Of a DNA stretch of 64,000 nucleotides, positions 7,201 through 40,831 are shown one piece after another; positions within the stretch are counted from its first letter, which is position 1, and each line of letters starts with the position of its first letter. The notes below the pieces were generated by a model, which did not search any database, was not told the origin of the DNA, and worked only from the letters and a program-made list of their open reading frames with translations. Where the stretch lies: assembly GCA_947495135.1 (NCBI GenBank), contig CANLXN010000013.1:1-64000 (forward strand). The letters run 5' to 3'. Source of the stretch: an uncultured Flavobacteriaceae bacterium. GTDB lineage: Bacteria > Bacteroidota > Bacteroidia > Flavobacteriales > Flavobacteriaceae. The position numbers were made by a program, and so were the translations under genes.

Positions 7201-10200
7201 GTACAAGTTGTGGGCACCGATCCAAGCCCTGAAATTACTGCGGCTACATCCAATCAATGTACTTCAGTAGAAGGACAATTTGAAATAGATGTTTCTTTAG
7301 TCGTAGCGGGAACAGCCCCCTATAGCTTTAGTATTGATGGTGGTAGTTTTCAAACCCAAACCGTGCCATTCACCATTTCAAATCTATCTTCTGGAACACA
7401 TACCATTGAGATAAATGATGCAAATGGCTGTGGAAATACGGCGACTGTTATTATTGAACCACCTTTAGGAATAACTCCCGCAGTAACAGGACTGCCAAGT
7501 TGTGATGATGATGACGGAGAAATCACCGTAACAGCTGCCGGAGGAACTGGTAACTATGCATATACCATTAGCCCGAATCCTCCTTCAATAGTGCTAACCG
7601 GAAATGTGTTTTCTGGTGTTCCATCAGGGACTTATACTGTTACCGTAACAGATACGGTTACTTTATGTCCTGAAGATGTAACGATTACTGTAGATAACGC
7701 TACCCCTGTAACGTTTAATACCGATGTTACAGATGTAAGTTGTAACGGAGGAAGCGACGGGACCATAACTGTGGAATTGCCTCCTAGTAATGACAACCCA
7801 ATATATACGTATGAAATTACGGCCCCTATTGTGATACCAGCTCAGACCAGTAATGTTTTTACCGGGCTAGCTGCAGGAACCTACACTGTAGAAGTAACCT
7901 CAGGAAGAGGCTGTATTGCTATGGCCGATGTTCCAGTTAATGAGCCTGTATTACTAACGGTTTCTGGAATTGCTACAGATTTTGCCTGTACTTCAGATAA
8001 CACCGTATCTACGGCAACTATAACTATTACTGAAGTTGGAGGTACTCCTAACTATACCTATAGTATTGATGGTACTAATTATTTTGTAACTAATCAATTC
8101 GAAGTTATAGACACTGGTTCAATCCAAAATGTTTCTATCTATGTAAAAGACGCCAACAATTGTGTGGCAACCAATACCGTTGTAGTAAACCCATTACCAA
8201 CAATTACGGCCGCTGCAGTCACCATTGCGACACCTGTAGATTGTAATGAAACGGGATCTGTGGCTATTAATGTTACAGGTGGTTCCGGGAATTTCACCTA
8301 TCAAATGCTTCCAGATGGTATTGCTCAAGCTTCAAACACTTTTGACATACCTGGACCAGGAACTTATTTCTTTCAAGTGAATGATGTAGATACCAATTGT
8401 TATTTCTTAACCATTCCTTTTGAAGTAGCTCCATTCGACGAAATTGATGCAGTATTAACCACGACAGTGGTAAACGATTGCTTTGGAGATACCAACGGGG
8501 AATTAGAATTATTGATTAGTGGATATATTGGCGCATACACCTACCAGCTACTTGACGAAACAGGTACGCCAATAGGAGGACCTGTTGCAGCAAACACTTC
8601 TACCAATCCCGAAATTATTACTGGACTACCTTCCGGAAATTATTCGGTGACCATTGTAGAAACAGAAACGCCATTCTGTACAACCGATTCTAACGTTGTA
8701 AATATTAGTACTCCACCAACTCCATTATTATTAGATATTTCTGAAACGTCTAATGTTACCTGTAATAACAATGAAGGTACTATAACCGCAATAGCAACTG
8801 GTGGTACAGCTCCATACGAATACGAACTAACAGGTGATGCAACCGTACCCTATTCTGCCAACAGTGTATTTACAGACTTGAGCGCAGGAACATATACTGT
8901 AAACGTAAGAGATGATAACGATTGTATCACAACAGATACTATCATTTTAATAGAACCAGATCCTATTGATGCTGATTTCGTTCCTAGTACCACAATGCTA
9001 TCCTGTTTTGACGATCAAAACGCATCGTTAACTGTTGAGAACATTACAGGTGGACAAGGAGGTAACTATGTTTATACCCTAAATACGATTTCTCCAGGAT
9101 CCACAACTTCTGGACCGCAAACCTCTCCGGTATTTAATGACTTAGGAGCTGGTATATATTCGGTCACTATTACAGATGGATACGATTGTATTTTTACATC
9201 ATTACCAGTTACCATAGACCAACCAGACCCTATAGTTTCTAGTTTGGTTGCCAATACGACCCCAACATGTCTAATTGAAGCGGAACTTACATTAAGCGCT
9301 ATAGGTGGAACAGGGATGTACGAATATAGCGATACTGAAGATTTCGCTACCGTCTTGGGTACATTTACAACCTCGGTTACTTTTCCAGTGCCAGCAGGTG
9401 TATACGATTATTATGTGAGAGATGCCAACGGATGTATCACGAACGTTTCTAATGAAATTACGATTGACCCACTTCCGGATCTAGAAATTAACTTACTCTC
9501 TACTAATCCAGAGATAAACTGTGCTGGTGATAATACCGGAACTATAGAAGCAACGGCCTTAGGTGGACTTGGCGACTATGTATATGTTTTGAAAGACGAA
9601 TTCGGAACCATTATTCCGGCAGATCAAAACAGTCCTGGAGTATTTACCGGACTGGTTGTAGGTACGTATTTCGTACATGTCGAAAGTGGTGATTGTTTAG
9701 CCACTTCCGAAGAAATTACCATTACAGAACCAGATGCGGCTTTGGGAATGACATTTGACGTAACGAATGTTCAGTGTAACGGAGAAGATAATGGTAGACT
9801 CGAAATCTTTCCTACGGGAGGAACGGGTATTATTAAATACGCGATTTCACCTCAATTGGATCAATTTTTTGAAACCAGTGTATTCGAAAATCTTGCTCCT
9901 GGAGTTTATGACGTAATTGTTCAAGACGAACTGGGTTGCTTCTTAACATTCGATTTTGAAGTAACGGAGCCATTACCAGTACTTATTACCATAGTAGCAG
10001 ACTCTATTATTCCAGAGATATGTGAAGGAGATCAGGATGGTTTCTTTAGCATAGATATTGAAGGTGGTACACTTCCATATAGTGTAAGCTTAGACGATTA
10101 CGATGGAACGTACGTAACAGGAGGACCAAGCCAAACTATTTTTGATTTTAACAATCTTGGCGGAGACGATCATGTTGTTTATGTAAGAGATAGCGCAGGA

Positions 10201-26367: not shown

Positions 26368-26400
26368 GTAGGAAGTCCTACAAGAAGTTTCGTACATTTG
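26368..26400 (+). promoter_or_regulatory. Putative promoter with overlapping palindrome, upstream of the 32-codon gene
   Basis: TACATTTG at 26393-26400 matches the Bacteroidota -7 element TAnnTTTG exactly. In the -33 area there is no TTG; instead there is the inverted repeat GTAGGAAGTCCTAC (26368-26381), suggesting a regulator-dependent promoter. The transcript would start near 26407 and run through the tiny gene to the terminator at 26716. Confidence 0.45.
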
Positions 26401-26421
26401 AATAACACCCAAATTTTATGT

Positions 26422-26441
26422 TGGCTCGCCAAAACGAGCCA
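26422..26441 (+). other. Hairpin in the leader of the first 32-codon gene
   Basis: TGGCTCG / CGAGCCA arms of 7 bp enclose a 6-base loop (CCAAAA). It would sit close to the 5' end of the RNA if the promoter at 26393 is used. It has no T-tract, so a terminator is unlikely. Confidence 0.4.
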
Positions 26442-26560
26442 TTATTACTTTACGTTCTTATATGCTGTAGTAGTTTAAAGCGATTTTTAATTGTTGCCAT
26501 TCTAATAATTATGAATGAATTGAAGGTCGTGTAAATATATTAACCTCTAAAACAGTACAT

Positions 26561-26659
26561 ATGAAACAAAAACTACACGGATGGAATGAACGGTTGAAAA
26601 GATGGTATGCCATCTTGGAAATTTATGGAAAGGCAAGTAGTTATGCCATCCACAGATAA
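26561..26659 (+). CDS. 32-residue peptide of unknown function, C-terminus KASSYAIHR (copy 1)
   Basis: ATG at 26561 to TAA at 26657-26659, 32 codons. It has no signal peptide; the body is a basic, Trp-containing amphipathic helix (W8, W15), and the last nine residues are KASSYAIHR. A second gene at 40673 encodes a peptide of exactly the same length with the same last nine residues and the same W15, L19 and E20. In those nine codons the two genes differ only at synonymous third positions (K24, A25 and A29), strong evidence for translation. A dedicated terminator follows 24 bp later. It is separated from the downstream DUF1800 gene by that terminator. I do not recognise the family. Confidence 0.75.
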   Translation: MKQKLHGWNERLKRWYAILEIYGKASSYAIHR

Positions 26660-26683
26660 GAATTCCTAAAATAACTAAAAAAG

Positions 26684-26716
26684 GCCCTTACTAATTAAAC
26701 TAGTAAGGGCTTTTTT
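26684..26716 (+). terminator. Rho-independent terminator of the first 32-codon gene
   Basis: A perfect 10-bp stem GCCCTTACTA (26684-26693) / TAGTAAGGGC (26701-26710) with a 7-base loop is followed by six T. The core CCCTTACT / AGTAAGGG recurs in the terminator of the second copy at 40801. Confidence 0.93.
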
Positions 26717-26883
26717 ATGTGTAATAGGTTTACAATTACACACTTTTTCGTGTAAAACTTACACAGGTAGAAAGTTTCGTATTCCTACAAATTAAAAAGA
26801 CCCCAAGCTGTTTGCTAACTCGAGAAGTTTACATGTTTTAGGCATGTTAGTTGCCATTAACTGTAAAACAAACTGCTTTATTC

Positions 26884-28338
26884 ATGTTCAAAACTGTTAA
26901 ATCCCCAGCGCTTGGAATGTACCCCTACATTCCTGATAGTATTATTCCTTGGAACGCGAAAACCATCCAGCATCTCTTTCGAAGAATTAGTTTTGGTATT
27001 CCGCATACCAACGTCTCCAATTTTATCAATGAAGACCCGCAAGAGGTAATTGACACCATTCTTAGTGATGCACAGAATGCCCCAATTACCGATCCCCCAG
27101 TTTGGGCCTTCTGGACACAAGAAGATTTCAATAATTCTGACATCTTACCTTACGAAGCCCGCAGAGATTGGCAAAAACAGGCAGTTAACGATTTTATAAA
27201 TAACGGATTGCGTGATAAGATGACCTTATTCTGGTCTAACCATTTTGTAACAGAAATGCAAGTTTATAATGCTCCTTCCTATTTGTACCAATACTATCAT
27301 GTATTGCAGACAAACGCCCTTGGAAATTTTAAAGAATTTGTACGAGCCATTGGCTTAACACCTGCAATGCTTATTTATCTCAATGGTTTTGAAAATAGAA
27401 AGAACAATCCTAATGAAAATTATGCAAGAGAGCTGTATGAACTTTTCACTTTGGGAGAAAACAATGGATACACACAAGATGATATTGTTGAAACAGCCAA
27501 GGCGCTTACCGGTTGGAATACCAGAGAAGAGAATGGAGGCCCCATTACTTTTAACCCAGATACCTTCGACGACAGTGATAAAATTATCTTCGGAAATATA
27601 GGTAATTGGGGATATGATGACGTAGTGGATAACTTATTCGCTGAAAAAGCTCCTCTTATTGCCGAATTTATTTGTTCTAAAATCTATACCTTTTTTATAG
27701 GCCCCGAAATTGATGCCACCTATGTAAATGGAATGGCTGAAACATTTATAGATAATAATTTTGAAATTTTCCCTGTAATTAATCAACTTGTAAAAAGTGA
27801 ACACTTCTTTGAACAAGTTCATCTGGGAGTAGTTATAAAAAGTCCTCTCAATTTACTAATTAGTTCGTATCAAGAATTAAATTTTGAAGTCGCGCCCGAT
27901 TTTGACATTATTAATCGAATTGTAGCAAATGCACGTGACACTGGACAGAACTTGTTTAACCCACCAGATGTCGCAGGTTGGCAAGGTGATAAAGCATGGA
28001 TGAACGCAACCGCTTTCACTAATAGGTGGTTATTTACTGAGCAAATGATTAGAAGGTTTTGGAATCATGATCGTGAACAATTTAGACAGTTAGCTGTTTC
28101 ATTGGTCGATGGCTCGAACGACCCAGCCTACATTACCCAAACTATCTTAGATTATATTCTGGTCTACGAATTACCAAATCCTGAAGAGTACGAAGCCGCA
28201 ATCGACGTCTTTAAATTGGACATTCCTCAAAACTATTACGACGAGGGGCTTTGGGATCTTAGCTGGGAACAGGTTCCGAAACAGGTCTTTGAATTATTAA
28301 AGTTTGTGATCAGAATTCCAGAATTTCAATTAAAATAA
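26884..28338 (+). CDS. DUF1800 family protein
   Basis: From the ATG at 26884 the protein has 484 residues (a TTG at 26851 would add 11). The family cues are AKTIQHLFRRISFGIPHTNVSNF near the start, KMTLFWSNHFVTEMQVYN, YARELYELFTLG and the NPPDVAGWQGDKAWMNATAF block near residue 360. DUF1800 proteins occur almost always beside DUF1501 proteins, as here: the next gene starts 5 bp later. No obvious signal peptide is seen at this start. The biochemical function is unknown; the pair is widespread in marine Bacteroidota and Planctomycetes. Confidence 0.9.
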   Translation: MFKTVKSPALGMYPYIPDSIIPWNAKTIQHLFRRISFGIPHTNVSNFINEDPQEVIDTILSDAQNAPITDPPVWAFWTQEDFNNSDILPYEARRDWQKQAVNDFINNGLRDKMTLFWSNHFVTEMQVYNAPSYLYQYYHVLQTNALGNFKEFVRAIGLTPAMLIYLNGFENRKNNPNENYARELYELFTLGENNGYTQDDIVETAKALTGWNTREENGGPITFNPDTFDDSDKIIFGNIGNWGYDDVVDNLFAEKAPLIAEFICSKIYTFFIGPEIDATYVNGMAETFIDNNFEIFPVINQLVKSEHFFEQVHLGVVIKSPLNLLISSYQELNFEVAPDFDIINRIVANARDTGQNLFNPPDVAGWQGDKAWMNATAFTNRWLFTEQMIRRFWNHDREQFRQLAVSLVDGSNDPAYITQTILDYILVYELPNPEEYEAAIDVFKLDIPQNYYDEGLWDLSWEQVPKQVFELLKFVIRIPEFQLK

Positions 28339-28343
28339 AAACT

Positions 28344-29966
28344 ATGTGCAGTAATACTACCCATCAACATACTAAGAAGTCTGAAGAAGAACAATCCCCT
28401 AATCATCAGAAAGAACATAAAACATGGAGTCGTAGGGCGTTTATGCACGCCCTAGGACTTACTGGCGCTGGGAGTATGGTGCTTTCCAACACAGTCCTTT
28501 CTGCATCTGCCGCTTCTCCATTAGCCGATGCTATCAACAATTCTGAAACAGATCGTGTTTTAGTGGTTGTGCGCCTTAAGGGAGGTAACGATGGACTCAA
28601 TACTATTATTCCTGTATACGACTATGACGCCTACGCAGGATATAGACCTTCCATTAAAATTAACCAGAACAACCTACTTAGTTTAGATCCAGATTTTGGA
28701 GTTCCAAACTATATGCAAGGTGTTAAAAACTTATGGGACGATGGTAAGATGAAAGTAGTACATGGTGTTGGCTACAACGATCAAAATTTATCACACTTCC
28801 AAGGTTCCGATAATTGGGCAACCACAGATGTTGTCAATGAAGATGAAGACACAGGTTGGCTTGGCCGCTATTTTCAAGAAATTTATCCTGACTTTCTAAA
28901 CAACCCACCAGAAAAACCCGCTGCCATCCAAATTGGTAATAGAGGGAATTTAATTTTTGAAGGCACAGAGACCAGCTACGCGCTTACGGTTGCCAATCCG
29001 CAACAATTGTATCAAATTGCAAGCGAAGGGACTTTATATAGCCTCGATAATCTACCCAATAATCTCTACGGAGATCAGGCAGAGTACTTAAGAGGTCTCG
29101 CCAATACTACCCTCAGTTATGCCGAAGTAATTAATACGGCCTATGAAAGTAGTACAGATGGAACTGGATATACCAATGGAGACTTGAGTAGTCAACTCAA
29201 TATCGTAGCCAGATTAATAAAAGGTAATTTAGGAACTAAAATTTACTTCGTTTCATTAGGAGGGTTCGACACACATAATTCTCAGCCGCAAAGACATCAG
29301 GCTCTCATGGAAGAATTATCGGGTGCTATGGAGGCCTTTTACAATGATTTAAGTGATCAAGGCCTTGATAACAAAGTATTAGCAATGACCATTTCAGAGT
29401 TTGGTAGAAGAACTGCAGAAAATGGCTCCAACGGAACCGATCATGGTGCGGCTTCTCAAATGATGCTTTTTGGAACTGGTTTAGAGGGAAATGGTTTTAT
29501 AAGTCAGCATCCAGATCTCAATGACCTGGACAATAGAGGAAACCTTAAATACAATTTAGATTTTCGGCAAGTCTATTCCTCCGTTCTTACCGACTGGCTC
29601 TGTGTGGATCCAGAAATAGTAAATGTTGCATTGCTGGGAACCGAATTTGACTCACTTCCCATGGGATATAGCTGTGAAGGTATTCTGGGTACGGAAGAAA
29701 TTATACCTGGTAGATCATTTGTTCATCATGCTATTTACAACAACAAGCAAGTTTCATTGCGTTTTGTGCTTACCGAAAGTATGCATGTAGATATTAAAAT
29801 TTATGCGATTACGGGTCAACAAGTTACCACCTTGTCTAATACATTTGCGAACGCGGGAGAACATCTCATTAACATATCTGAAAAGACTTCGCTATTGCCA
29901 GGAACATATATTTATAAAATAGCAACCCGCAGAGGGTATTACAGCAAGCAATTTATTGTTCCATAA
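28344..29966 (+). CDS. DUF1501 protein with Tat-like signal and T9SS type A sorting domain
   Basis: The 540-residue protein has a Tat-type signal in the N-terminus: SRRAFM at 29-34, then a hydrophobic Gly/Ala stretch and an ASA cleavage region near 56. The DUF1501 domain (alkaline-phosphatase-like fold) spans ~65-440; visible cues are VVVRLKGGNDGLNTIIPVYD, SHFQGSDNW, GGFDTHNSQPQRH and TISEFGRRTAENGSNGTDHG. The last ~80 residues (from about 458, ending in ATRRGYYSKQFIVP) are a type A sorting domain. So the protein seems folded in the cytoplasm, exported by Tat, then passed to type IX secretion. It is coupled to the DUF1800 gene. Confidence 0.92.
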   Translation: MCSNTTHQHTKKSEEEQSPNHQKEHKTWSRRAFMHALGLTGAGSMVLSNTVLSASAASPLADAINNSETDRVLVVVRLKGGNDGLNTIIPVYDYDAYAGYRPSIKINQNNLLSLDPDFGVPNYMQGVKNLWDDGKMKVVHGVGYNDQNLSHFQGSDNWATTDVVNEDEDTGWLGRYFQEIYPDFLNNPPEKPAAIQIGNRGNLIFEGTETSYALTVANPQQLYQIASEGTLYSLDNLPNNLYGDQAEYLRGLANTTLSYAEVINTAYESSTDGTGYTNGDLSSQLNIVARLIKGNLGTKIYFVSLGGFDTHNSQPQRHQALMEELSGAMEAFYNDLSDQGLDNKVLAMTISEFGRRTAENGSNGTDHGAASQMMLFGTGLEGNGFISQHPDLNDLDNRGNLKYNLDFRQVYSSVLTDWLCVDPEIVNVALLGTEFDSLPMGYSCEGILGTEEIIPGRSFVHHAIYNNKQVSLRFVLTESMHVDIKIYAITGQQVTTLSNTFANAGEHLINISEKTSLLPGTYIYKIATRRGYYSKQFIVP

Positions 29967-30035
29967 TAGCCAGAACTAATATAAAGGAGTACAGACAGGA
30001 TCAATAAACTTATTAAAAAACGGCATTCGAAACCT

Positions 30036-30566
30036 TTATAGTTCGATTGGGGTTGCTTGAGAAGCGTTTATTTTCCAGCGATCGTTGTAGATAGACTTAT
30101 AGTTAATTTTATAGTCTAATCCCTCATTCTGCAATCGGCTTATCAATTCAACAAAGGTATCATAACTCTTTTGACCTCCTCCAACCGTTAAAACATTACG
30201 TCTAGAACCTGCAGGAATGGCCAACCCAATTTGAACACTGGAGTAATTTACAATATGTACGCTATCCATCTCCTTTATATGTTCCCGCAAAAACATTTCA
30301 AATTCCATGTCGTATTCCTTTCCTTTATAGATAATCACTCGGTTTTCTATAATAGCTGGTCCTACGCCGTAATTTTCTAAATCAAGTTTAAAAGTTCCGT
30401 CTTTACTATTATTTGAAGTTTCAAGCATTAAATATGGCATTACCGATAGATGACTTTGCGCTTCAATGATATTGGTTTGTTTAATGAATATGAAAAGAGT
30501 TAATAAACTTATAGACATGGCAGAAAAGCTTACGATTTTATCGGAAGTCCAGAATTTTTTTTTCAT
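30036..30566 (-). CDS. Membrane-anchored protein of unknown function
   Basis: The 176-residue protein has one N-terminal transmembrane helix (~12-28, SFSAMSISLLTLFIFI) and an extracytoplasmic beta-rich domain (LSVMPYLMLETSN ... LENYGVGPAIIENRVIIYKGKEYDMEF). The middle resembles small uncharacterised proteins of Bacteroidota and Gammaproteobacteria that share the ENYGxGPAII pattern. The family function is unknown. It stands alone, divergent from the DUF2807 gene across 205 bp, and convergent with the DUF1501 gene. Confidence 0.75.
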   Translation of the reverse strand: MKKKFWTSDKIVSFSAMSISLLTLFIFIKQTNIIEAQSHLSVMPYLMLETSNNSKDGTFKLDLENYGVGPAIIENRVIIYKGKEYDMEFEMFLREHIKEMDSVHIVNYSSVQIGLAIPAGSRRNVLTVGGGQKSYDTFVELISRLQNEGLDYKINYKSIYNDRWKINASQATPIEL

Positions 30567-30771
30567 GTGTTAGCCGAATTAGTTGTCTAAATTTAATGAA
30601 ATGTACGCTCTCATACAACTAAAATATATATTTGAACCATTGATATATAGAACTATAGATCGTTTTTAAAAATTTCGTTCTACCAATAATATTTCAACCT
30701 AACTGTAACAATTTGGGCCTGACGACATCTTTAAACAAGAAGAAATTAATCACTCTTAAAAATCAACCATT

Positions 30772-31500
30772 ATGAACAGCAAATCCATCTTTCTCACCGC
30801 ATTCATCCTTTTTATTAACCTCTCATTAGTCGCTCAGAAACGTTTTAATCTATCAAAAGAAACCACAACCACCAGCTATAACTTTGATGGCTACACACAA
30901 TTGGACATTGCCAGTGACTTTGAAGTTGAATTAAATTTTTCGGACACGAAGGAAGAAATTACCTTAGAAACGAACAGTAACCTTTTAGAGTTTATTGATA
31001 TCACTAAAAAGGGAAATACGCTTGTTTTTAGAATGGAAGATGGACTTTGGAATATGAAGGGGAATTTGATTCTAAAGGTAAACATAACCACCCGCCCTAT
31101 CATAAACAAATTTAACCTGTCATCAGATGCTGTTGTTAAAGTGAATGACCCATTGACACAAGATAGCCTAGAATTAAATCTGAAAAGTGACAGTACGTTG
31201 TCTGCAGACATCAAAGTAAATTCCTTAATGGTAAACGCAAAGTCTGATGCTGTGGTAACACTTTCCGGTATTGCTAATTCAATGAAGGCAGCGCTTTCAT
31301 CAGATAGCCAGCTAAAAGCAGATAACTTGACCATTCAAGATGTTAAAATCAAGCTTGCAAGTGATAGTAAAGCTGAGATAAATGTAACAGGATCGTTAGA
31401 TGCAAATGCCAGCGGAGATGCCCTACTTCGCTATTCAGGTAACCCTAGCAAGGTAAATAAAAAAGCGAGTGGAGATGCCGAAATCATTTCTTATAACTAA
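30772..31500 (+). CDS. Secreted head-GIN (DUF2807) domain protein
   Basis: The 242-residue protein has a signal peptide of ~22 residues (ending SLVAQ). The DUF2807 adhesin-like beta-helix follows, built from repeating short strands: DGYTQLDIASDFEVELNFS, FNLSSDAVVKVNDPL, NLKSDSTLSADIKV, NAKSDAVVTLSGI and ASGDALLRYSGNPSK. Members are exported and their role is not established. The Ser-Asp turns recur about every 20 residues, as expected for a right-handed helix. Confidence 0.9.
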   Translation: MNSKSIFLTAFILFINLSLVAQKRFNLSKETTTTSYNFDGYTQLDIASDFEVELNFSDTKEEITLETNSNLLEFIDITKKGNTLVFRMEDGLWNMKGNLILKVNITTRPIINKFNLSSDAVVKVNDPLTQDSLELNLKSDSTLSADIKVNSLMVNAKSDAVVTLSGIANSMKAALSSDSQLKADNLTIQDVKIKLASDSKAEINVTGSLDANASGDALLRYSGNPSKVNKKASGDAEIISYN

Positions 31501-31542
31501 TGCTTCGTAAGTAAACTCGATTTAAAACGATCGCACCTATTA

Positions 31543-32076
31543 CTATCTGTTTTTACCATTCGATTTTCCGAAGAAAAAGTTATAAGCCTTTCCAATAATG
31601 AACAGCCCGTAATAGAACACAATAGTTAAATTAATTAGAAAAAAGGCAATCACAAAAAACCATTTGATCCTAACAGACCAATAATAAAAGATGAAATTAC
31701 GTTCTATATCTAGGTCATTGACGAAGTGTAAAAACGAGAAGTTTTCGACTAAATCAAACGCTCCTGGAATAATACAAAGCAGGTAAAACAGTTTATGAAC
31801 CTTAAATCCCATAGACTGAGCCATTACCTTAATGGACAAAACAAAGAGGACGGAATACAAGAACATGAATACAAAATCTAAATAGGCGTTCTTGTTTAAT
31901 CTTTCCAAACTATAGCCAGATACGGCCTCTTTAAAATGCTGCCAATTATCTGTAAACTGAATTGATAGTATATCAGGAATATTAAGCGATTTATTAAAAT
32001 GAAATATCGCCAAAACTGTTACCACTGCGAAAAAGGCAACTCCCCATGACTTACTTGTTTTGTTTAAACTTGCCAT
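31543..32076 (-). CDS. Four-helix integral membrane protein
   Basis: The 177-residue protein has about four transmembrane helices (~11-27, 66-86, 94-110 and 136-164) and a short basic C-terminus. I do not recognise a family. It starts 7 bp after the stop of the patatin gene upstream on the same strand, so the two form an operon. A partner or anchor role for the lipase is possible but inferred from position only. It is convergent with the DUF2807 gene across 42 bp. Confidence 0.78.
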   Translation of the reverse strand: MASLNKTSKSWGVAFFAVVTVLAIFHFNKSLNIPDILSIQFTDNWQHFKEAVSGYSLERLNKNAYLDFVFMFLYSVLFVLSIKVMAQSMGFKVHKLFYLLCIIPGAFDLVENFSFLHFVNDLDIERNFIFYYWSVRIKWFFVIAFFLINLTIVFYYGLFIIGKAYNFFFGKSNGKNR

Positions 32077-32083
32077 TTTTTGA

Positions 32084-33628
32084 TTATTTTAAAGCTGAAT
32101 TTCGAATTTCTAAATACTCTTGCCATTCAAACTTATCTAGCTGCCGAATCGCAGCATCTACTCCTTTCTTAAACAATGCTCTCTTGGTATCGTCGGTCAT
32201 CCAAAAGTCTAACCAATTAAAACCTTGTGTTTGAACTGTTTCAATACGCGAGGTAATTTCATCGTTTCTAAACAAAAACTCATTGTCATAGAAATTTCTG
32301 AAAGTGGCGAAGAAAGAGCCAATGTAAGCCACAAGTGAAACGGATTCAAAACGTAGTTTATCCAATGCATCCTTAATTTTTTTCTCGACTTCAGATATTT
32401 CAGATTTCTTCTTGAGTTCTCTTTCTGAAAGTAGCACTCCGAAAGTTGGAAACCTAGGATTCCTATTATCGCTTCTATGAAACTCCCTAATTGGAAAATT
32501 TGAAAGCATTCCTCCATCTACGAATCGGGCGTACAGCTTTATCGGATTCTCTGGAGCCACTCCCGCATAATGATATTGACTTGGGATAAAAGCGTGATAA
32601 ATAAAAGGCAAAGACATGGTTGCCCTTAAATAAGCCCCCGGCTTTATACGATCAGGATTTTTCCAGTAATCACCTGCCTTTTCTGGAAACTTCACGATTC
32701 TATTGTGTGTGAGGTTAGAGGTGATGAGCACTAAACGAGGAGAATCTGACGAGTCTGCACCTTCAATAGTCGTTTCTTTCATCCTATTCATTAAATTAGC
32801 AGTGTCTTCAATTGCGACGATAGCTAATAACTTATTTGCCCAAGTATAAAATTGTCTTCCAGTATTAATTCCGAAATTCTTGTTCATTAATTTAACAAAC
32901 AAGATATAACCCAAAGCCAACAAAGCAAAAACATTAAGTGTTCCTACTACAAAATCATAAAAACGCAATTCCCTTCCAGTAAGACCATTGCTAGTGCTAA
33001 AGACCATTCCGAATATGGTATAAGTAAAAATAAGAAAGGCTATGACCAATAGCGCCAAGCAAAATTTCATCCAAAAGGATTTAAAATTTTTGAATAGCTT
33101 ACGCTGCATTGCCCCTACAATCCCTTTTCGCTCCATAAAACTACTGAAATCGGTATTGGCGATGATATGAGTTAGTATTTCAGACTTAGAAGCTTGTCTG
33201 GAATTAGCTCCTTCACTAAAAAGTGATTCTTGTTCATAGATACTGTTTGGCAGGGACGCCAAAAACATCGCATTAATTGCTCCAGCGCTGGTTCCTCCAT
33301 GACTATAAAATCTAATTCCAACCTTCTCCATAACATAGGTATAGCCAAGTAGGGCAATTCCGTACATACCTCCACCCTGTTGAACAAGGTCAATAACAGG
33401 CCTGCTGTACTTCACCCCTTTGTATGTTTCTACAATAGTGGCTTTAGATATGAAAGAACCCTCAATTTGACCATTGATGATCTTATCTTTCAATGTTCTA
33501 TTCTCATCGCCAATAGCTCTTGCCAATGCTTCATCGGCTTCCTTCAGCATCTTAGTTGTATTTTCAGTATTATTGGAGACAATTACCTTCTCCTCTAATG
33601 CCTTCTTAAAAACATTTTCAATATTCAT
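32084..33628 (-). CDS. Patatin-like phospholipase with a membrane hairpin inside the catalytic domain
   Basis: The 514-residue protein has oxyanion loop GGG at 85-87 (QQGGGMYGIALLG), nucleophile elbow GTSAG at 112-116 (Ser114) and catalytic Asp371 (FVDGGMLSNFPI). Between Ser and Asp sit two transmembrane helices (~187-210 and 228-248), so the active site is split by a membrane hairpin. The N-terminal ~75 residues are a helical, charged extension. The protein should hydrolyse membrane acyl lipids at the inner membrane. It is the first gene of a two-gene operon with the four-helix protein. It shares architecture, not close identity, with the patatin at 16469-18136. Confidence 0.9.
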   Translation of the reverse strand: MNIENVFKKALEEKVIVSNNTENTTKMLKEADEALARAIGDENRTLKDKIINGQIEGSFISKATIVETYKGVKYSRPVIDLVQQGGGMYGIALLGYTYVMEKVGIRFYSHGGTSAGAINAMFLASLPNSIYEQESLFSEGANSRQASKSEILTHIIANTDFSSFMERKGIVGAMQRKLFKNFKSFWMKFCLALLVIAFLIFTYTIFGMVFSTSNGLTGRELRFYDFVVGTLNVFALLALGYILFVKLMNKNFGINTGRQFYTWANKLLAIVAIEDTANLMNRMKETTIEGADSSDSPRLVLITSNLTHNRIVKFPEKAGDYWKNPDRIKPGAYLRATMSLPFIYHAFIPSQYHYAGVAPENPIKLYARFVDGGMLSNFPIREFHRSDNRNPRFPTFGVLLSERELKKKSEISEVEKKIKDALDKLRFESVSLVAYIGSFFATFRNFYDNEFLFRNDEITSRIETVQTQGFNWLDFWMTDDTKRALFKKGVDAAIRQLDKFEWQEYLEIRNSALK

Positions 33629-33924
33629 ATTTAAATTCTAGAGTTTCATTTAACCCGCACTGAGCATTTAAACTACAACGAGCATACTTCAATTAGACGA
33701 GGAGAAAATACCGATAATTGAAAATCAGTTGTCTAAATATAATCCGTTTTTATTTAGTATCAAAGCTGCCGTTGGGTCGAAAATGATTTTCATTACTATT
33801 GACACCATGCATTTCATTCTTCACCTCATACTTCGCCCTATTAATTCCTGAGAAAATTTTACATAGTGTTGAATTAGCCGTATTTTTAACTCCTATCATA
33901 AGCAACAATTAATTTTTCTCAGCC

Positions 33925-35487
33925 ATGAAACAAATATTTGCTCTTTGCCTTGCCTTCAGTCTTTTTTCAATCCAGCTAATCGCTCAAAAAAAAGAGCAAG
34001 ATCCAATAATCTCCAAAATTATCAATGAAGCGAATGAAAACTCACAGCTTGAACCCCTTGGACATCATTTAATGGATGTAATAGGTCCGCGTTTGGTTGG
34101 CTCTCCACAAATGGAAAATGCGCATAATTGGGCAATTGAAAAATATAAACAATGGGGAATTTCAGCGAGAAATGAAAAATGGGGTGAATGGCGCGGATGG
34201 GACAGAGGTATTACTCATATTGATATGGTCTATCCAAGAACTCAAAGTCTTCGTGGAACGCAATTGGCCTGGAACCCCAGTACATCAAAAGAAGGAGTTA
34301 CTGCAGAGCTTGTAGTGCTGCCTACTGTAAAAGATTCTCTTGAGTTCTCTAAGTGGCTTAAAAAGAATGTAAAAGGCAAGTTGGTGATGATTTCTATGGA
34401 ACAACCAACCGGAAGACCCGATTCTAATTGGGAAGAATTTGCTACTGAAAAATCTTTTCAAAAGATGAAGGACAATAGAGATGCGCAAACCAAAGAATGG
34501 CGAGCAAATTTTAGACGAATGGGATACACAAGTAGAACATTACCGGCTGCGCTAGAAGATGCAGGAGCGGCGGGATTAGTTGCCTCTTATTGGTCGAGAG
34601 GGTTTGGAGTGAACAAGATCTTTAGTGCGCGAACAAAGAAAATACCTACGGTAGATCTTGAATTAGAGGACTACGGAATGTTGTACAGAATGGTAGCATC
34701 TGGACAGAAGCCAAAAATTAATATTGTCGCTCTTTCAAAGGAACTAGGAACCGTACCTACCTTCAATACCATTGCAGAAATCAAAGGAAGTGAAAAACCT
34801 GAAGAATACGTCATTCTTTCTGCCCATTTCGATTCTTGGGACGGCGCGACAGGCGCAACAGATAATGGAACTGGAACCCTTGTGATGATGGAAGCAATGC
34901 GTATTTTAAAGAAATTCTACCCCAATCCAAAACGCACCATTTTAGTAGGTCACTGGGGAAGTGAAGAACAAGGACTTAATGGTTCAAGAGCCTTTGTAGA
35001 AGACCATCCAGAGATAGTCGATAAAACCCAGGCTTTATTTAATCAAGACAATGGAACAGGAAGAGTAGTGAGACTTTCGGGTGCTGGCTTTTTACACTCA
35101 TACGACTATTTATCCCGCTGGTTAAATGCTGTTCCAAAAGAAATCAGAGATGAAATTGAAACCACCTTCCCAGGAGCGCCTGCCAGAGGTGGGTCCGACT
35201 ATGCGTCTTTCCAAGCAGCCGGAGCACCCGGTTTTAGTTTAAGTTCTCTTAGTTGGTCTTACTGGGATTATACTTGGCATACCAATAGAGATACTTACGA
35301 CAAGATTGTTTTTGACGACCTAACGAACAACGTTATACTAACTGCAATTTTAGCATACAAGGCAAGCGAAGACCCAGAAACTACTTCTCGGGTTAAAAGT
35401 GTACTTCCTATTGATCGCAGAACAGGCGAACCTCGCGTATGGCCTTCACCAAGATCTCCAACGAGAAGCGGGGGTTTGGATAAATAG
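33925..35487 (+). CDS. Exported M28-family zinc peptidase
   Basis: The 520-residue protein has a signal peptide at 1-21 (LIAQ). A PA-like domain is likely in ~110-280. The M28 catalytic domain begins near 290 with His301 and Asp313 (SAHFDSWDGATGATDNGTG), the general base/metal pair Glu347-Glu348 (HWGSEEQGLNGS), the metal Asp in FNQDNGTGR, and a late His in WDYTWHTNRDTYDKI. The motifs match aminopeptidase/glutamate-carboxypeptidase relatives with two zinc ions. It is probably periplasmic or secreted and would release amino acids from peptides. It stands alone. Confidence 0.92.
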   Translation: MKQIFALCLAFSLFSIQLIAQKKEQDPIISKIINEANENSQLEPLGHHLMDVIGPRLVGSPQMENAHNWAIEKYKQWGISARNEKWGEWRGWDRGITHIDMVYPRTQSLRGTQLAWNPSTSKEGVTAELVVLPTVKDSLEFSKWLKKNVKGKLVMISMEQPTGRPDSNWEEFATEKSFQKMKDNRDAQTKEWRANFRRMGYTSRTLPAALEDAGAAGLVASYWSRGFGVNKIFSARTKKIPTVDLELEDYGMLYRMVASGQKPKINIVALSKELGTVPTFNTIAEIKGSEKPEEYVILSAHFDSWDGATGATDNGTGTLVMMEAMRILKKFYPNPKRTILVGHWGSEEQGLNGSRAFVEDHPEIVDKTQALFNQDNGTGRVVRLSGAGFLHSYDYLSRWLNAVPKEIRDEIETTFPGAPARGGSDYASFQAAGAPGFSLSSLSWSYWDYTWHTNRDTYDKIVFDDLTNNVILTAILAYKASEDPETTSRVKSVLPIDRRTGEPRVWPSPRSPTRSGGLDK

Positions 35488-35502
35488 AATTATAGTTCTT
35501 AG

Positions 35503-36396
35503 TTAGTCCATTTCTCGCTTTCTGGAATTAATGAAGTAAACACCGGTCAATAAAATAATAGCAGCTACAACGGTCTGCCCAGTAACCACTTCATCTAAAA
35601 CGTACCAACCTAGAGCGACAGCAACTACTGGGTTCACATAAGCAGAAGTAGAAACTTTCTCTGTAGAAACTACCTTTAGTAGATAGTTGAAAGATGTGAA
35701 CGCAGCTATACTTCCGAAGAGAATCAAAAACACCATTGCGCCTTTGGTTCGAAGACTCCATGATATTGGAGAAATCCATGCTTCCCCAAAAGCCATACTT
35801 GCAATGGCAAGGGATATTCCAGCGGTCCCCATTTGATAACCCGTATTAACTAGAAAATTAGATGGTAGATCGGCTTTGGCAACAAACAAACTACCTGCAG
35901 CCCACCCTAAAATGCAGGTGAAGATCATAATCATAGCCAGTGTACTACCCTCTTGTAAGTGCAGTTCCTTCTGACTTACCAATAGATACATACCAAAAAT
36001 ACCCAACGCAACTCCTATTCCAGATCTTGCCTTAATTTTAGTACCATGAAAAAATTTCATCATTAAAAGCACCACTAACGGCAGTAAAGCAGCCTCCAAA
36101 GATGCAAAACCACTATCTAGGTATTTTAAAGCCCAAACATATACTCCATTTCCATATCCGAGAAATAAAAACCCCGCCAAAACCGTATTAACAAATTGTT
36201 TTTTGGTAATTCGAAGACTTGCTCCAGAGAACTTTGCAATAAGCATGATCAAAATACTAGCGCATATAAAACGAAAAGACGCGAGCATAAACGGGTCTAA
36301 TTGCTGGACGGCAATCTTATTAAAAAGGTAGGTAGATCCCCAAAAGACATAAATGGAAAAGAAAGCAGCAATTACCAGTAAAGGGCGTTTTTCCAT
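35503..36396 (-). CDS. EamA-family (DMT superfamily) transporter
   Basis: The 297-residue protein has ten predicted transmembrane helices arranged as two EamA repeats (~7-140 and ~150-290). The signatures are FWGSTYLFNKIAV near the N-terminus, GNGVYVWALKYLDSGFASLEAALLPL in repeat 1 and VSTEKVSTSAYVNPVVAVALGWYVLDE in repeat 2. Family members export metabolites such as amino acids; the substrate is not predictable. It is convergent with the M28 gene with only 15 bp between stops. Confidence 0.93.
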   Translation of the reverse strand: MEKRPLLVIAAFFSIYVFWGSTYLFNKIAVQQLDPFMLASFRFICASILIMLIAKFSGASLRITKKQFVNTVLAGFLFLGYGNGVYVWALKYLDSGFASLEAALLPLVVLLMMKFFHGTKIKARSGIGVALGIFGMYLLVSQKELHLQEGSTLAMIMIFTCILGWAAGSLFVAKADLPSNFLVNTGYQMGTAGISLAIASMAFGEAWISPISWSLRTKGAMVFLILFGSIAAFTSFNYLLKVVSTEKVSTSAYVNPVVAVALGWYVLDEVVTGQTVVAAIILLTGVYFINSRKREMD

Positions 36397-36465
36397 TATT
36401 AGAGCTGTATTGAAGGTTCAAATATTAAAGCGTCTATCCCATGTTTGCTGAAATAGAATGTTAGA

Positions 36466-38028
36466 TCAATCTTCCGGAGGATGCCCGTGTATCTCTTCAA
36501 ATACCGCGTCGAAATTCTCTCTCAAATAAGACCGAAGCTTCAGTCTGTAGTCGTCTTTTAACCAACTCACAAAGTTATGGGTGCTCTTGCTAATGCACTT
36601 GGCGTAATCGGCAATACGCTGATCGATATCTGGACCCAACATTTTCGCTAATCCTAAAGCATCATAAATATCTTCACTATTCTCAATGCAAATATACGCG
36701 TGCTGAGCAATGGAACGTTCCAAAACTACTTTTGAAGACTCCCCTTTTGCGGTAGCAGTAATGTATGTCTGCTTTATATCGAAATAAACCTCTTCAGACT
36801 TCGAGAACTCTGCTCTTAGCTCTTCTGGCATTTCGTGCTTAAAATGGCTTTCTAGATCCTCATCGTTCAACAAACGATCCATGTAAAAATCTGGAGACTT
36901 AAAAATGGTCTGCCAATCGAGATCGGCTCCCCAAGGACCAAAGCGTTGATAGTTATTTCCTAAGTCAATTACCTTAAAGCTTGACTTATTATTTAGGATA
37001 CGAGATCCACGACCAATCATTTGGTAATAGAGCGTCAACGACTTGGTTGCTCTATTTAAGATTATGGTATCTATGGTAGGTTCATCAAAACCAGTGGTTA
37101 AGATACTTACTGAAGTTAAAATAGCGTCTGGAGTCTTTTTGAACCACTCCAAAATCTGCTTTCTTTGCTTTTTTGTTGCGGTGTTATCCAAATGCGCCAC
37201 TGGAAGTCCCGCTGCTTTAAATGTATAGTATACTTGGATAGAGGTATTAATTCCGTTATTAAAAATCAGCGTTTTCTTTCCGGAAGAATGTTTTTGATAA
37301 GCTTCCAATAGCTTATCAAGCATAGAATTGCTGGTGTAGAGATCTTCAGAAGATTTAACGGTATAATCTCCATGCGAACCTACTTCTAAGGAAGTTAAAC
37401 TCATATCGTATTGATACACCTCTGCTCTCGCAAGAAATTCGTTTTCGATCAGGGCCTCGATTGTCTCTCCGGCAATTAATTCGTTATAATTATCTTTCAT
37501 TGGTAAGTTCTTATTTGAACTTAATGGCGTTGCTGTAACACCAAGAATGAAAGAGTTATCGAAAAACTTAAAAAGTTTAGTAAAAGAATTGTAATGCGCT
37601 TCATCAATAATTACCAACCCAATGTCTGAAATGTCTAACTGATCATCGTTTAAACGATTGTTCAGGGTTTCCACCATGGCAACGAAACAACTATATCGAT
37701 CCTGATCATCAAGGTTTGCAGTGCTATTTACCACTTTATTAACCACTCCAAAACTGGTAAGCATTTCCGAAGTTTGCTTACAAAGCTCAATACGGTGGGT
37801 CATCACCAATACTTTCTTGTTGTGGTTTTTAAGATATTGACGAACAATTTCGGAAAAGATAACAGTCTTTCCCCCACCAGTTGGCAGTTGATATAGTAAA
37901 TGATAATCGTCTGGAGCAGTATCAAATTTTTCGAAAATCTGATTTATAGCTCCTTCCTGATAACTATATAATTCTTTGTCTGTTTTTCGTTCTTGTAATT
38001 CGTAAGCGATCTCACCCATAAATGCCAT
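36466..38028 (-). CDS. Superfamily 2 DEAD/DEAH helicase (RadD/type III restriction-like)
   Basis: The 520-residue protein has Walker A PTGGGKT at 49-55, Walker B DEAH at 142-145, motif III GVTATPL, and motif VI in YYQMIGRGSR near 340. The pattern is that of RadD-like helicases rather than DEAD-box RNA helicases (no Q motif of that type). The C-terminal ~130 residues are helical and charged. A role in DNA repair or restart is likely by family. No nuclease or methylase neighbour is present, so it is not part of a restriction system here. Confidence 0.88.
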   Translation of the reverse strand: MAFMGEIAYELQERKTDKELYSYQEGAINQIFEKFDTAPDDYHLLYQLPTGGGKTVIFSEIVRQYLKNHNKKVLVMTHRIELCKQTSEMLTSFGVVNKVVNSTANLDDQDRYSCFVAMVETLNNRLNDDQLDISDIGLVIIDEAHYNSFTKLFKFFDNSFILGVTATPLSSNKNLPMKDNYNELIAGETIEALIENEFLARAEVYQYDMSLTSLEVGSHGDYTVKSSEDLYTSNSMLDKLLEAYQKHSSGKKTLIFNNGINTSIQVYYTFKAAGLPVAHLDNTATKKQRKQILEWFKKTPDAILTSVSILTTGFDEPTIDTIILNRATKSLTLYYQMIGRGSRILNNKSSFKVIDLGNNYQRFGPWGADLDWQTIFKSPDFYMDRLLNDEDLESHFKHEMPEELRAEFSKSEEVYFDIKQTYITATAKGESSKVVLERSIAQHAYICIENSEDIYDALGLAKMLGPDIDQRIADYAKCISKSTHNFVSWLKDDYRLKLRSYLRENFDAVFEEIHGHPPED

Positions 38029-38143
38029 TTCTAAGATTGCAAAAATACCTCCTTTTGAAGGGTTTTGTTGAATATTTTAAAAAAAATGTAGAACTATTTT
38101 TCCTATAATTGGAAAAAAGCTAGACAGATGGAGGATAGAAGGG

Positions 38144-39493
38144 TTATTTCTTTTTGTTCCTTTTATTGAAATTCTTATCTCCCTTTGTCTTTGGTTTCTT
38201 ATATTTTCTTTTAATAATACGCTGGTAAGACCCACCCTGATTCTCCTTTTTATTCTTGTCTTTCTTCTCATGGAATCCAGATGCATCTTCTTCGGTTCTT
38301 TTGGTCGGGTTGTTAGGTTCGTAATTTTTGGGTTGTTCTTCAGGGGTTAGTCGTGTTGCTATTTCAATTTCTTCAGGTATTGTTTCTTCTGAAATTTTCA
38401 TATTCATTAGAGTTTCAATGACCTCTTTTGCGGGCTGTTCCTTTTCAGTATAAAACAAAAGTGAAACACCTTCTTTCTCTGCCCTACCTGTTCTACCTAT
38501 GCGATGCATGTAATTTTCTGGAAATGCAGGCGTATCCATATTTACCACATGAGAAATTTCATCCAAATCCAACCCCCTGGACATTACATCTGTAGTCACC
38601 AAAATACGTGTTGCTCCCTCATTGAAATGCGCTATGGATCTAATTCGGTAGTTTTGAGTCTTGTTAGAATGTATCACCGCCACACGCTCTCCAAATTGCT
38701 CTTCCATCACCTCGAACAAACGGTCTGCACTCTTTTTATTTGAAACAAACACTAATACTTTCCTGTAGGTTTCGGCATCCTTCAATAAATGAGCCAACAG
38801 GTTTACTTTGGTGTAAAAATTTGGAACCGAATAACTATGCTGGGCAATATTGTCCAAGGGTGTTCCGCTTATGGCCACCGAAACTGTGGTAGGTCCAAAG
38901 AAAAAGTCTTGGATTAGTTCATTTACATCGTCCGTCATAGTTGCCGAGAACATTATATTTTGACGACGTTCTGGGAGTAGCTCAAAAATATTGATAAGTT
39001 GAAATCGAAATCCTAAATCCAACATTACATCAACCTCATCTATTACCAGTTTTTTTATGTTTTTTAACTGAAGCGCTCTACTTAAAACCAGGTCGTATAA
39101 ACGTCCAGGTGTTGCTACAACAATATCTGCACCCATCGCAACTGCTTCTTTGTGCTGATTAATATTAACTCCTCCATATACACCCGTAACACGAATAGAC
39201 GAGTACTTCCCAAATTTTTCTATTTCCTCTGTTACCTGAATAACCAATTCTCTAGTTGGAACTATTACCAAAATTCTAGGATGTAATTCTTTTGAAAATT
39301 TCAAGCCTTGAATGAGCGGCAACATATATGCAAAGGTCTTTCCCGTACCCGTTTGAGCAATACCCACCATATCTTTACCAGACATAATCACAGGAAAAGA
39401 TTTGGCTTGGATGGGCGTTGGTGTTTCAAAGCCAAGATCGTCTATGGCGTACTGTAGCTGCTTGGAAATATTAAAATCCTGGAAAGAATCCAT
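38144..39493 (-). CDS. DEAD-box RNA helicase (RhlE-like) with basic tail
   Basis: From the ATG at 39493 the protein has 449 residues (the longer frame from 39523 adds ten unlikely residues). It shows Q motif GFETPTPIQ, motif I AQTGTGKT at 46-53, motif II DEVD (a variant of DEAD), motif III SAT, and motif VI HRIGRTGRA. The last ~70 residues are highly basic and Lys-rich, as in RNA-binding tails of cold-shock or ribosome-assembly helicases. It acts on RNA in the cytoplasm. A second DEAD-box helicase lies at 52995-54113. Confidence 0.92.
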   Translation of the reverse strand: MDSFQDFNISKQLQYAIDDLGFETPTPIQAKSFPVIMSGKDMVGIAQTGTGKTFAYMLPLIQGLKFSKELHPRILVIVPTRELVIQVTEEIEKFGKYSSIRVTGVYGGVNINQHKEAVAMGADIVVATPGRLYDLVLSRALQLKNIKKLVIDEVDVMLDLGFRFQLINIFELLPERRQNIMFSATMTDDVNELIQDFFFGPTTVSVAISGTPLDNIAQHSYSVPNFYTKVNLLAHLLKDAETYRKVLVFVSNKKSADRLFEVMEEQFGERVAVIHSNKTQNYRIRSIAHFNEGATRILVTTDVMSRGLDLDEISHVVNMDTPAFPENYMHRIGRTGRAEKEGVSLLFYTEKEQPAKEVIETLMNMKISEETIPEEIEIATRLTPEEQPKNYEPNNPTKRTEEDASGFHEKKDKNKKENQGGSYQRIIKRKYKKPKTKGDKNFNKRNKKK

Positions 39494-39748
39494 TTTGTTA
39501 TATGTTTTTTGCAAAAATAGCATTTAAAGACGAGGAACTAAGTATCGTAAAGAACGAAAGAAGAAACTTCTTTATTTTATGCAAAGGTGACTATTGCGAA
39601 CTGATATTACTTTAAATTTGATTTACAGGTTGAAAATGTATGGTATCAAAAATTGAAACGACCTATTGTTGGGTCGGGCAATAAAAACATGGTATTCGCA
39701 TTTTTTATAGTAGCAACTTTTTATATGATGAAAATTTCAGAAATACAT

Positions 39749-40546
39749 ATGATCACTCAAAGAACAATTTATTTAATATTTACAATGCTGGTATTGGTTT
39801 CCTGCAAGGATACTAATGAAAGTAGCCGTAAAATTGAACCGGTTAGGGTAATCACTCCAAATGCAGAAACCACTCCCGAAGACCTTTTACTAGAAATGGT
39901 TATAAACGCACATGGTGGCGAATTGTATAACGAAGCCAACTTTTCATTCCGTTTCAGAGAAAAAGAATACACTTTCGCTAACAGTGGGAACAACTATACT
40001 TACACTGTTGAAAGCTCCGCAAATGGAGATACCATTATTGACGTTTTTAAAAATGGTAAATTCTCGCGGTTTATGAATGATCAACTTTTAGAGTTATCGG
40101 AGAAGAACATAGCCAAATATAGTGAGGCACTCAATTCTGTCATCTATTTTGTCACCTTACCACATAAGCTCAACGATCCTGCGGTGATCAAAAAATACAA
40201 AGGCACTGCAACCATAAAGGACAAGAATTACGAAATTTTAGAAATCACATTCGAGAAAAATGGAGGCGGAAAAGATTTTGATGATGTTTTTCACTACTGG
40301 ATCAACTCTGAATCGCATAAAATAGATTACCTCGCTTATAATTATCGCGTAAACGAAGGTGGCGTTCGTTTTAGAAGTGCTTACAATAAAAGAGTTGTTT
40401 CTGGAATTACCTTTCAAGATTACATCAACTACAAAGCTCCAGTAGGAACTCCCCTAATTGATCTTCCGGTTCTGTTTGAGAAAGGTGAATTAAAAGAACT
40501 CTCTAGAATAGAAACAGAAAATATAATCAACCTAACTGACTTATAA
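39749..40546 (+). CDS. Lipoprotein of unknown function with an outer-membrane-lipoprotein-like fold
   Basis: From the ATG at 39749 the protein has 265 residues and a lipoprotein signal with lipobox LVLVSC (Cys19). A longer frame starts with TTG at 39653 and would add an implausible N-terminus. The mature part contains the block LLLEMVINAHGGELYNEANFSFRFREKEYTF and many amphipathic strands with two FEKNGGGKDFDDVFHYWINSESHKIDYLAYNYRVNEGG-type segments, a pattern of uncharacterised Bacteroidota envelope proteins. Its function is unknown. The second 32-codon gene follows 126 bp later with its own promoter-like signal. Confidence 0.78.
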   Translation: MITQRTIYLIFTMLVLVSCKDTNESSRKIEPVRVITPNAETTPEDLLLEMVINAHGGELYNEANFSFRFREKEYTFANSGNNYTYTVESSANGDTIIDVFKNGKFSRFMNDQLLELSEKNIAKYSEALNSVIYFVTLPHKLNDPAVIKKYKGTATIKDKNYEILEITFEKNGGGKDFDDVFHYWINSESHKIDYLAYNYRVNEGGVRFRSAYNKRVVSGITFQDYINYKAPVGTPLIDLPVLFEKGELKELSRIETENIINLTDL

Positions 40547-40586
40547 ACAATTAGTTAATCGCAATTTTTTTATTAAGAAATTTTAA

Positions 40587-40602
40587 TGGCACGCTTATTG
40601 AA
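40587..40602 (+). promoter_or_regulatory. Sigma-54-like -24/-12 promoter of the second 32-codon gene
   Basis: TGGCACG at 40587-40593, four bases, then TTGA at 40598-40601. The sigma-54 consensus is TGGCACG-N4-TTGC, so only the last C differs. Transcription would start near 40613, giving a ~60-base leader before the ATG at 40673. No rpoN gene or enhancer-binding protein is visible in the window, so this rests on sequence match alone. Confidence 0.45.
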
Positions 40603-40672
40603 CTCTACTAAACAACTAGACTAATAATTAGCTAGTGTAGAAAAATAAGTATTAACATTAAAATTCTAGATT

Positions 40673-40771
40673 ATGAAAAATTTGAAGAAAGTTCTAGCAG
40701 AAAAACTGACAAAGTGGAATGAGAAATTAGAAGAATTTGCAAAAGCCAGTAGTTATGCAATCCACAGATAG
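40673..40771 (+). CDS. 32-residue peptide of unknown function, C-terminus KASSYAIHR (copy 2)
   Basis: ATG at 40673 to TAG at 40769-40771, 32 codons, the same length as copy 1 at 26561. The N-terminal two-thirds is a Lys/Glu-rich amphipathic helix with W15; the last nine residues KASSYAIHR are identical to copy 1. Conserved codons differ only at wobble positions, and stop codons differ (TAG against TAA). It is followed 29 bp later by a strong terminator and faces the DoxX gene, so it cannot be the leader of a downstream gene. This argues for an independent small protein gene. No family is recognised. Confidence 0.78.
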   Translation: MKNLKKVLAEKLTKWNEKLEEFAKASSYAIHR

Positions 40772-40800: not shown

Positions 40801-40831
40801 ATCCCTTACTGCAGCAGTAAGGGATTTTTTT
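40801..40831. terminator. Bidirectional terminator after the second 32-codon gene and the DoxX gene
   Basis: ATCCCTTACTG / CAGTAAGGGAT form an 11-bp perfect stem around CAG (40801-40825), then seven T on the plus strand. On the minus strand it directly follows the DoxX stop codon (40830-40832) and ends TTTTATTT. The stem core matches that at 26684. Confidence 0.92.

Follow-up and report, generated by a model that had tools for sequence, protein, structure and literature searches.

Twin peptide genes of a Flavobacteriaceae bacterium belong to an apparently undescribed family of ~32-residue proteins with a conserved C-terminal tail

The window analysed here, a 64,000-nucleotide stretch from an uncultured marine Flavobacteriaceae bacterium (contig CANLXN010000013.1 of assembly GCA_947495135.1), carries two very short genes on its forward strand. 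An earlier note made from the letters of this DNA had described them as twin 32-codon genes, and translation confirms both: copy 1 (window:26561-26659:+) encodes MKQKLHGWNERLKRWYAILEIYGKASSYAIHR and copy 2 (window:40673-40771:+) encodes MKNLKKVLAEKLTKWNEKLEEFAKASSYAIHR, in each case 32 residues followed by a stop codon and in each case ending in KASSYAIHR. The two genes and the elements around them are as follows.

26384..26400, +, promoter-like box of copy 1, GAAGTTTCGTACATTTG, found by pattern match 177 bases upstream of the start
26401..26560, +, copy 1, probable 5' leader with the short element TTAACCTCTAAA, loosely common to other members, at its end, placed from the box position and the upstream listing
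26561..26659, +, peptide gene copy 1 (copy-B lineage), from translation, the match to copy 2 as query and the exact tail pattern
26684..26716, +, intrinsic terminator of copy 1, stem GCCCTTACTA / TAGTAAGGGC and T run, read from the sequence
40587..40602, +, sigma-54-type promoter of copy 2, TGGCACGCTTATTGAA, from the pattern and the presence of rpoN in the genome
40673..40771, +, peptide gene copy 2 (copy-A lineage), from translation, with relatives found by search
40802..40831, +, intrinsic terminator of copy 2, stem TCCCTTACTG / CAGTAAGGGA and T run, read from the sequence

Copies 1 and 2 are identical at 16 of 32 residues (50%). The common positions M1, K2, W15, L19 and E20 and the last nine residues had been pointed out before; E10 and L12 are additionally shared. 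As also described earlier, the sole differences among the nine tail codons are AAG/AAA, GCA/GCC and GCC/GCA, all of them synonymous. When copy 2 was used as the query against its own genome, copy 1 was recovered at E 0.005 with no other match below 1, and the degenerate DNA pattern GCNWSNWSNTAYGCNATHCAYMGNTAR, which covers tail and stop, occurs at 2 places in that genome. Just 3' of copy 1 and its terminator lies a DUF1800/DUF1501 gene pair (window 26851-29966), in which the DUF1501 gene carries a weak Por secretion tail; elsewhere, window 1282-10956 holds an open reading frame of 3224 aa.

Further copies in related genomes, on whose existence the earlier note had let its reading depend, were found by searching for the tail, and they keep the frame and the tail and mostly also the length. 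The nine genomes of the genus contain 17 exact tail-ending frames: eight of them have two, and G005, which is 80% complete, has one. In a set of 60 genomes (our own and 59 relatives) the exact tail pattern is present in 11 and its reversed form, the control, in 0; copy 2 as a query finds relatives at E 0.1 or better in 10 of these genomes, its own counted. Scanned for the exact pattern, the GTDB genome collection returned 56 stretches, where we roughly estimate that three would be expected by chance. Of these, 54 are titled as Flavobacteriaceae, its genera or otherwise Bacteroidetes, including Aquimarina, Dokdonia, Gilvibacter, Ulvibacter, Altibacter, Aureitalea, Zobellia, Flavivirga and Pukyongia, and the two from Betaproteobacteria look like chance.

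Profile searches of 397 Flavobacteriaceae genomes gave matches, among the candidates scored, in 26 genomes with the first alignment (E 0.01) and in 32 with the last (E 0.003), a few of them weak; E-values in the family are circular for sequences that were themselves rows of the alignment. The 365 genomes without a match among the candidates scored are not firm absences, since in many genomes of the family and order searches at most 20 candidates per genome were scored. Matches were likewise found in 6 of 395 genomes of an order sample, among the candidates scored, where the two outside Flavobacteriaceae look spurious, and in 3 of 296 genomes of a phylum sample, all three Flavobacteriaceae; the share of genomes from outside the family is not given for either sample. 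Weak matches are counted in both the family and the order search (for example G264, G305, G621 and G705). Aquimarina gave 355 matches in 46 of 52 genomes (profile search; median 7 and maximum 14 per genome). A stretch of Aureisphaera galaxeae (G007:C10:118219-118284, E 6.1e-6) is a possible third, more diverged copy. From best-scoring or exact-tail loci we collected 147 distinct members (139 at an earlier stage), for which Aquimarina contributed the loci of 30 of its 355 matches, 19 larger regions and the loci of the exact scan. Judged by their sequences, the twins thus belong to a genuine and apparently undescribed family of ~32-residue proteins, and the observation is larger than first stated, as copy number, tandem arrays, promoter elements and terminators now add to it.

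Most of the peptides are 32 residues (92 of 139 members) or 28 residues long (23), and the last eight columns, which change little between species, mostly read A-[SC]-S-[YHN]-A-I-[HR]-[RHK], with A-4 kept in 137 and I-3 in 126 of the 139. In the fetched loci the form A[SC]S[YHN]A[IML][HRN][RHK] stands directly before the stop at 127/127 places, a figure that holds partly by construction because the exact-tail searches demand the stop (the profile searches did not), and no larger protein with the tail motif inside it was found there. Net charge over the whole peptide lies between +1 and +11 in 147/147 members, and the hydrophobic-moment z averages 1.9 and exceeds 1 in 124/147, so that the earlier description of the N-terminal part as diverged yet basic and amphipathic extends to the family. 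A membrane-length stretch, taken as 17 residues with a mean hydropathy above 1.6, occurs in 1/147 members; the reported absence of a signal peptide is borne out to the extent that 146/147 have no membrane-length hydrophobic core, a measure of hydropathy and not the output of a signal-peptide predictor. The AlphaFold model of copy 2 is one helix over residues 2-31 (mean pLDDT 83, pTM 0.35), and models of a single short helix carry little information on function. A-8 and A-4 would lie on one helical face, and their small-xxx-small spacing would suit helix packing.

Purifying selection on the tail, which had been proposed from the twins, held in a codon-substitution comparison. With pN/pS given as raw proportions, the values for tail and head are 0.00 and 0.29 in the copy-A set (Aureisphaera-like, 16 sequences), 0.03 and 0.52 in the copy-B set (14 sequences), and 0.26 and 0.72 for all 32-residue members together. 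In four Aquimarina sets the tail values are 0.07, 0.13, 0.06 and 0.00, compared to 0.29, 0.29, 0.12 and 0.39 for the head; the tail is somewhat less strict in this genus, at 0.06 to 0.13 in three of the four sets. Tail codons drift mainly synonymously, and it is therefore the peptide that is conserved, not the DNA alone. For the tail tyrosine (codon -5), 86 of 149 distinct genes use TAT and 9 use TAC, as compared to 47 TAT and 44 TAC for tyrosines elsewhere in the same peptide genes. An overlapping frame was considered here and rejected: the TATGC of the tail opens an out-of-frame ATG, but the frame so opened keeps neither its length nor its sequence, and CAC stands at this tail position in 25 of the 149 distinct genes.

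The claim that no known family has this signature stands for the libraries that we searched. Pfam, NCBIfam and PADLOC gave no significant match for 37 members (best Pfam E 0.052), the PDB none for a profile of these members (best E 0.28), PHROGs none for five members, and Rfam none for the window and four loci. The NCBIfam entry NF047798.1 (leader_Chryseo bacteriocin-like protein) resembles the family in that it, too, is flavobacterial and begins with a small basic segment, and its alignment to copy 2 (E-value 8 over residues 1-7) is chance. A search of plasmids and phages with one Aquimarina peptide as the query gave no match; in viral contigs the exact DNA pattern occurs 0 times, and none of 13 tail-pattern stretches picked up by the profile was confirmed by tblastn. 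We therefore set aside carriage as phage or plasmid cargo, given no confirmed copy in these collections, and some Aquimarina and Flavivirga copies do lie within T4SS-like loci of genome contigs. None of the open-licence papers listed by literature searches described an SSYAIHR-, SYAIHR- or YAIHR-tailed peptide; the letters YAIHR occur in two unrelated papers. What is new is thus the family, absent from the libraries searched; its function may still be of a known kind.

The upstream regions of the twins differ. The box of copy 1 contains a Bacteroidetes-type TAnnTTTG element, and its TACATTTG part resembles the Bacteroidetes housekeeping -7 element. The corresponding pattern, GAADTTTCKTAYATTTR, has a single match in the 4.29-Mb genome, the one upstream of copy 1. 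Across the family it precedes 15/146 members as compared to 0/611 neighbouring genes, and a shorter form precedes 15/20 copy-B-like members and 17/611 neighbours; here and below, the neighbours are open reading frames called by a simple rule, three of the promoter patterns were spotted in listings before being counted, and one of 139 and one of 147 members drop out for short upstream DNA. An AACC-N15..17-GTC class, absent from copy 1 and similar to ECF-sigma promoters, is found at 14/138 members and 6/611 neighbours (shuffles 1.4), a TAACC..TAAA element with one mismatch allowed at 20/138 and 22/611, and a plain housekeeping pattern at 14/138 and 18/611.

The sigma-54 pattern TGGCAC[GA]-N4-TTG (-24/-12) lies upstream of 24/138 members, 0/611 neighbours and 0.0/138 shuffles; a looser version is found at 30/138 members and 5/611 neighbours. 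It is present in members from Aureisphaera, Aureitalea, Dokdonia and Aquimarina, and in copy 2 but not in copy 1, and rpoN is present in 14/14 genomes searched, our own included. Two of 23 sigma-54-like sites (L045 and L063) are better read as AACC-N16-GTC, and the stricter sigma-54 pattern counted above drops both. The different elements upstream of copies 1 and 2 mark the twins as paralogs under different control. For 93/146 members none of three patterns (sigma-54, ECF-like, copy-1) is found upstream, so control through multiple inputs is seen for part of the family only. In our own genome a similar sigma-54 pattern has 11 matches, several inside genes, and its reverse 5. Those outside genes (L196, L199-L201) lie ahead of a region that looks TonB-like and of two genes for secreted proteins, labels that were read by eye and that hint at a small envelope-related sigma-54 regulon. 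The TonB-like region is in line with the TonB enrichment reported for the Flavobacteriia sigma-54 regulon (PMC12316311). Members of the copy-A lineage and some Aquimarina paralogs resemble that regulon in carrying -24/-12 sites. They differ from the products named for it, among them TonB, chaperones and ribosomal proteins, and the term 'small protein' is missing from the main text (PMC12316311).

Many of the genes also end in a terminator of their own. An intrinsic terminator lies within 120 bases 3' of the gene in 81/137 members and is missing from 56/137, with 1.4 expected from shuffles (two of 139 members are left out; these shuffles, like those used for the promoter counts, keep single-base content only). 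The median distance from the stop to the beginning of its stem is 30 bases. Tandem pairs less than 1 kb apart are on the same strand in 36/36 cases at a median spacing of 335.5 bases; 14 of these pairs are less than 250 bases apart and may therefore share a transcript. In an array of four in Aquimarina sp. MMG016, terminator-like hairpins were seen by eye behind three copies. What follows downstream varies: copy 1 has a same-strand gene ~190 bases past its stop, five Aquimarina / Flavivirga loci have a gene 52-76 bases behind the peptide copy, and the next gene behind copy 2 is convergent, as are the opposite-strand genes behind both A. galaxeae copies. Among the 25 largest neighbour clusters, most of them without library annotation, no recurrent operon partner was found beyond apparent inherited context; the candidates S41 peptidase (13 loci) and M28 peptidase (12 loci), some of whose loci come from the same genome, look like such context.

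Selection on the peptide, an exact C-terminal tail, terminators at the majority of members and distinct conserved promoter elements for part of the family are thus shown at the level of sequence, and they would fit the earlier note's suggestion of a variable helix that carries a recognition tag at its C-terminus. The reading that we prefer, tentatively and at somewhat less than even confidence, is that the family consists of trans-acting, condition-induced cytoplasmic microproteins, each a single amphipathic helix whose tail docks on one conserved partner, with the paralogs serving as several sigma-factor inputs. Most members would probably be made from their own short mRNA; the peptide would be translated, stay in the cytoplasm and fold as one amphipathic helix. 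The conserved face of its C-terminus, together with the free carboxylate (A-S-S-Y-A-I-H-R-COOH), could then dock in trans on the partner, for which a protease or adaptor, the ribosome or a transcription factor are candidates, while the variable basic helix would tune affinity or location. Paralogs would let sigma-54, ECF-like and housekeeping-type factors feed into one target. That no operon partner recurs among the 25 largest neighbour clusters argues for action in trans, and the patchy occurrence among the 397 Flavobacteriaceae genomes implies a partner that in some genomes does without the peptide; with same-strand genes behind copy 1 and some Aquimarina/Flavivirga copies, cis effects are possible there.

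For each of the main rivals there is a result that speaks against it. Membrane-active peptides of the type I toxin kind, with an antisense RNA keeping each of them in check, would agree with the basic amphipathic helices and the closely spaced same-strand tandem units (36/36 pairs), and ldr-type toxins are tandem stand-alone small genes. Ldr/Fst-type toxins also match the family in peptide length (~30-35 residues); the family departs from them by lacking a membrane-spanning stretch and an antisense promoter signal and by its conserved C-terminal tail. The family has a membrane-length hydrophobic stretch in a single member, an antisense promoter pattern in 7/144 members as compared to 4.95 in shuffles (no enrichment; 3/147 members left out), and a tail conserved beyond what membrane insertion would seem to need, and we regard the toxin explanation as unlikely. 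A variable leader that ends in a conserved segment, and the many paralogs per genome, would suit a signal or antimicrobial precursor from which the tail is cleaved and exported, to be sensed or to act as a toxin outside the cell. Against such export, 146/147 members lack a membrane-length hydrophobic core (by hydropathy, not by a signal-peptide predictor), and the 25 largest neighbour clusters show no obvious recurrent transporter or receptor; we regard a precursor as about as unlikely as a toxin.

A leader or ribosome-arrest peptide, which would sense by means of its tail and stop codon and control a downstream gene in cis, would explain why the tail ends at the stop, as it does in SpeFL and TnaC, which are likewise short and conserved up to the stop codon, and would make use of the terminator close behind the gene and of the same-strand genes behind copy 1 and in the five Aquimarina/Flavivirga loci. 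Behind copy 2 and behind both A. galaxeae copies the next gene is on the opposite strand, so there is no constant cis target, and a same-strand regulated gene is not found at every locus. The terminator stem, moreover, starts beyond the footprint of a stalled ribosome, and the family departs from SpeFL and TnaC in having no constant co-directional gene, its own terminator in the majority and many paralogs; we regard cis control by a leader as very unlikely. Least probable of the four is a dual-function small RNA, in which a base-pairing transcript would come with the peptide as by-product or second output. The putative short transcripts with strong terminators, a partly common 5' element and the TAT preference at the tail tyrosine (86:9, against 47:44 elsewhere) would be in its favour; the synonymous drift of the tail shows that the peptide itself matters, and Rfam had no match in the window or the four loci.

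If the favoured reading of trans-acting microproteins is taken further, the family could represent a new class of bacterial regulators, an interchangeable microprotein with a conserved eight-residue C-terminal docking key for one conserved machine of the cell and with paralogs that each have a sigma-54, ECF-like or unique promoter of their own. We consider this possible but doubtful; if true, many signals would adjust one target via the same key in different amounts. Genes of such shortness are easily overlooked, yet these occur in 46/52 Aquimarina genomes in up to 14 copies, and the family stands in part behind promoter sites found at few or no other places in the genome. These sites make sigma-54 control in Bacteroidetes directly testable, and the tail is short enough to be synthesised, immobilised and used for fishing out a partner.

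Further observations concern the surroundings of individual copies. An M28 peptidase gene is flanked by paired peptide copies, 5.5 to 14 kb apart, in the window (26561-40771) and in four fetched loci (L066 of Aureitalea, L067 of Gilvibacter, and also L063 and L064), an arrangement that is absent in A. galaxeae (L068) and G003 (L069). Aureitalea-like copies keep a CAACCGGAAYC sequence between stop and terminator (L086, L122 and L125, downstream of copy A). In the Aquimarina / Flavivirga loci L176:4364-9320, L099 and L119, a peptide copy lies 52-64 bases ahead of a gene; that of L176 encodes T4SS coupling-protein domains (TraG/TrwB) and is followed by M23 peptidase and TraM genes, and loci of this type may be a conjugation or effector system.
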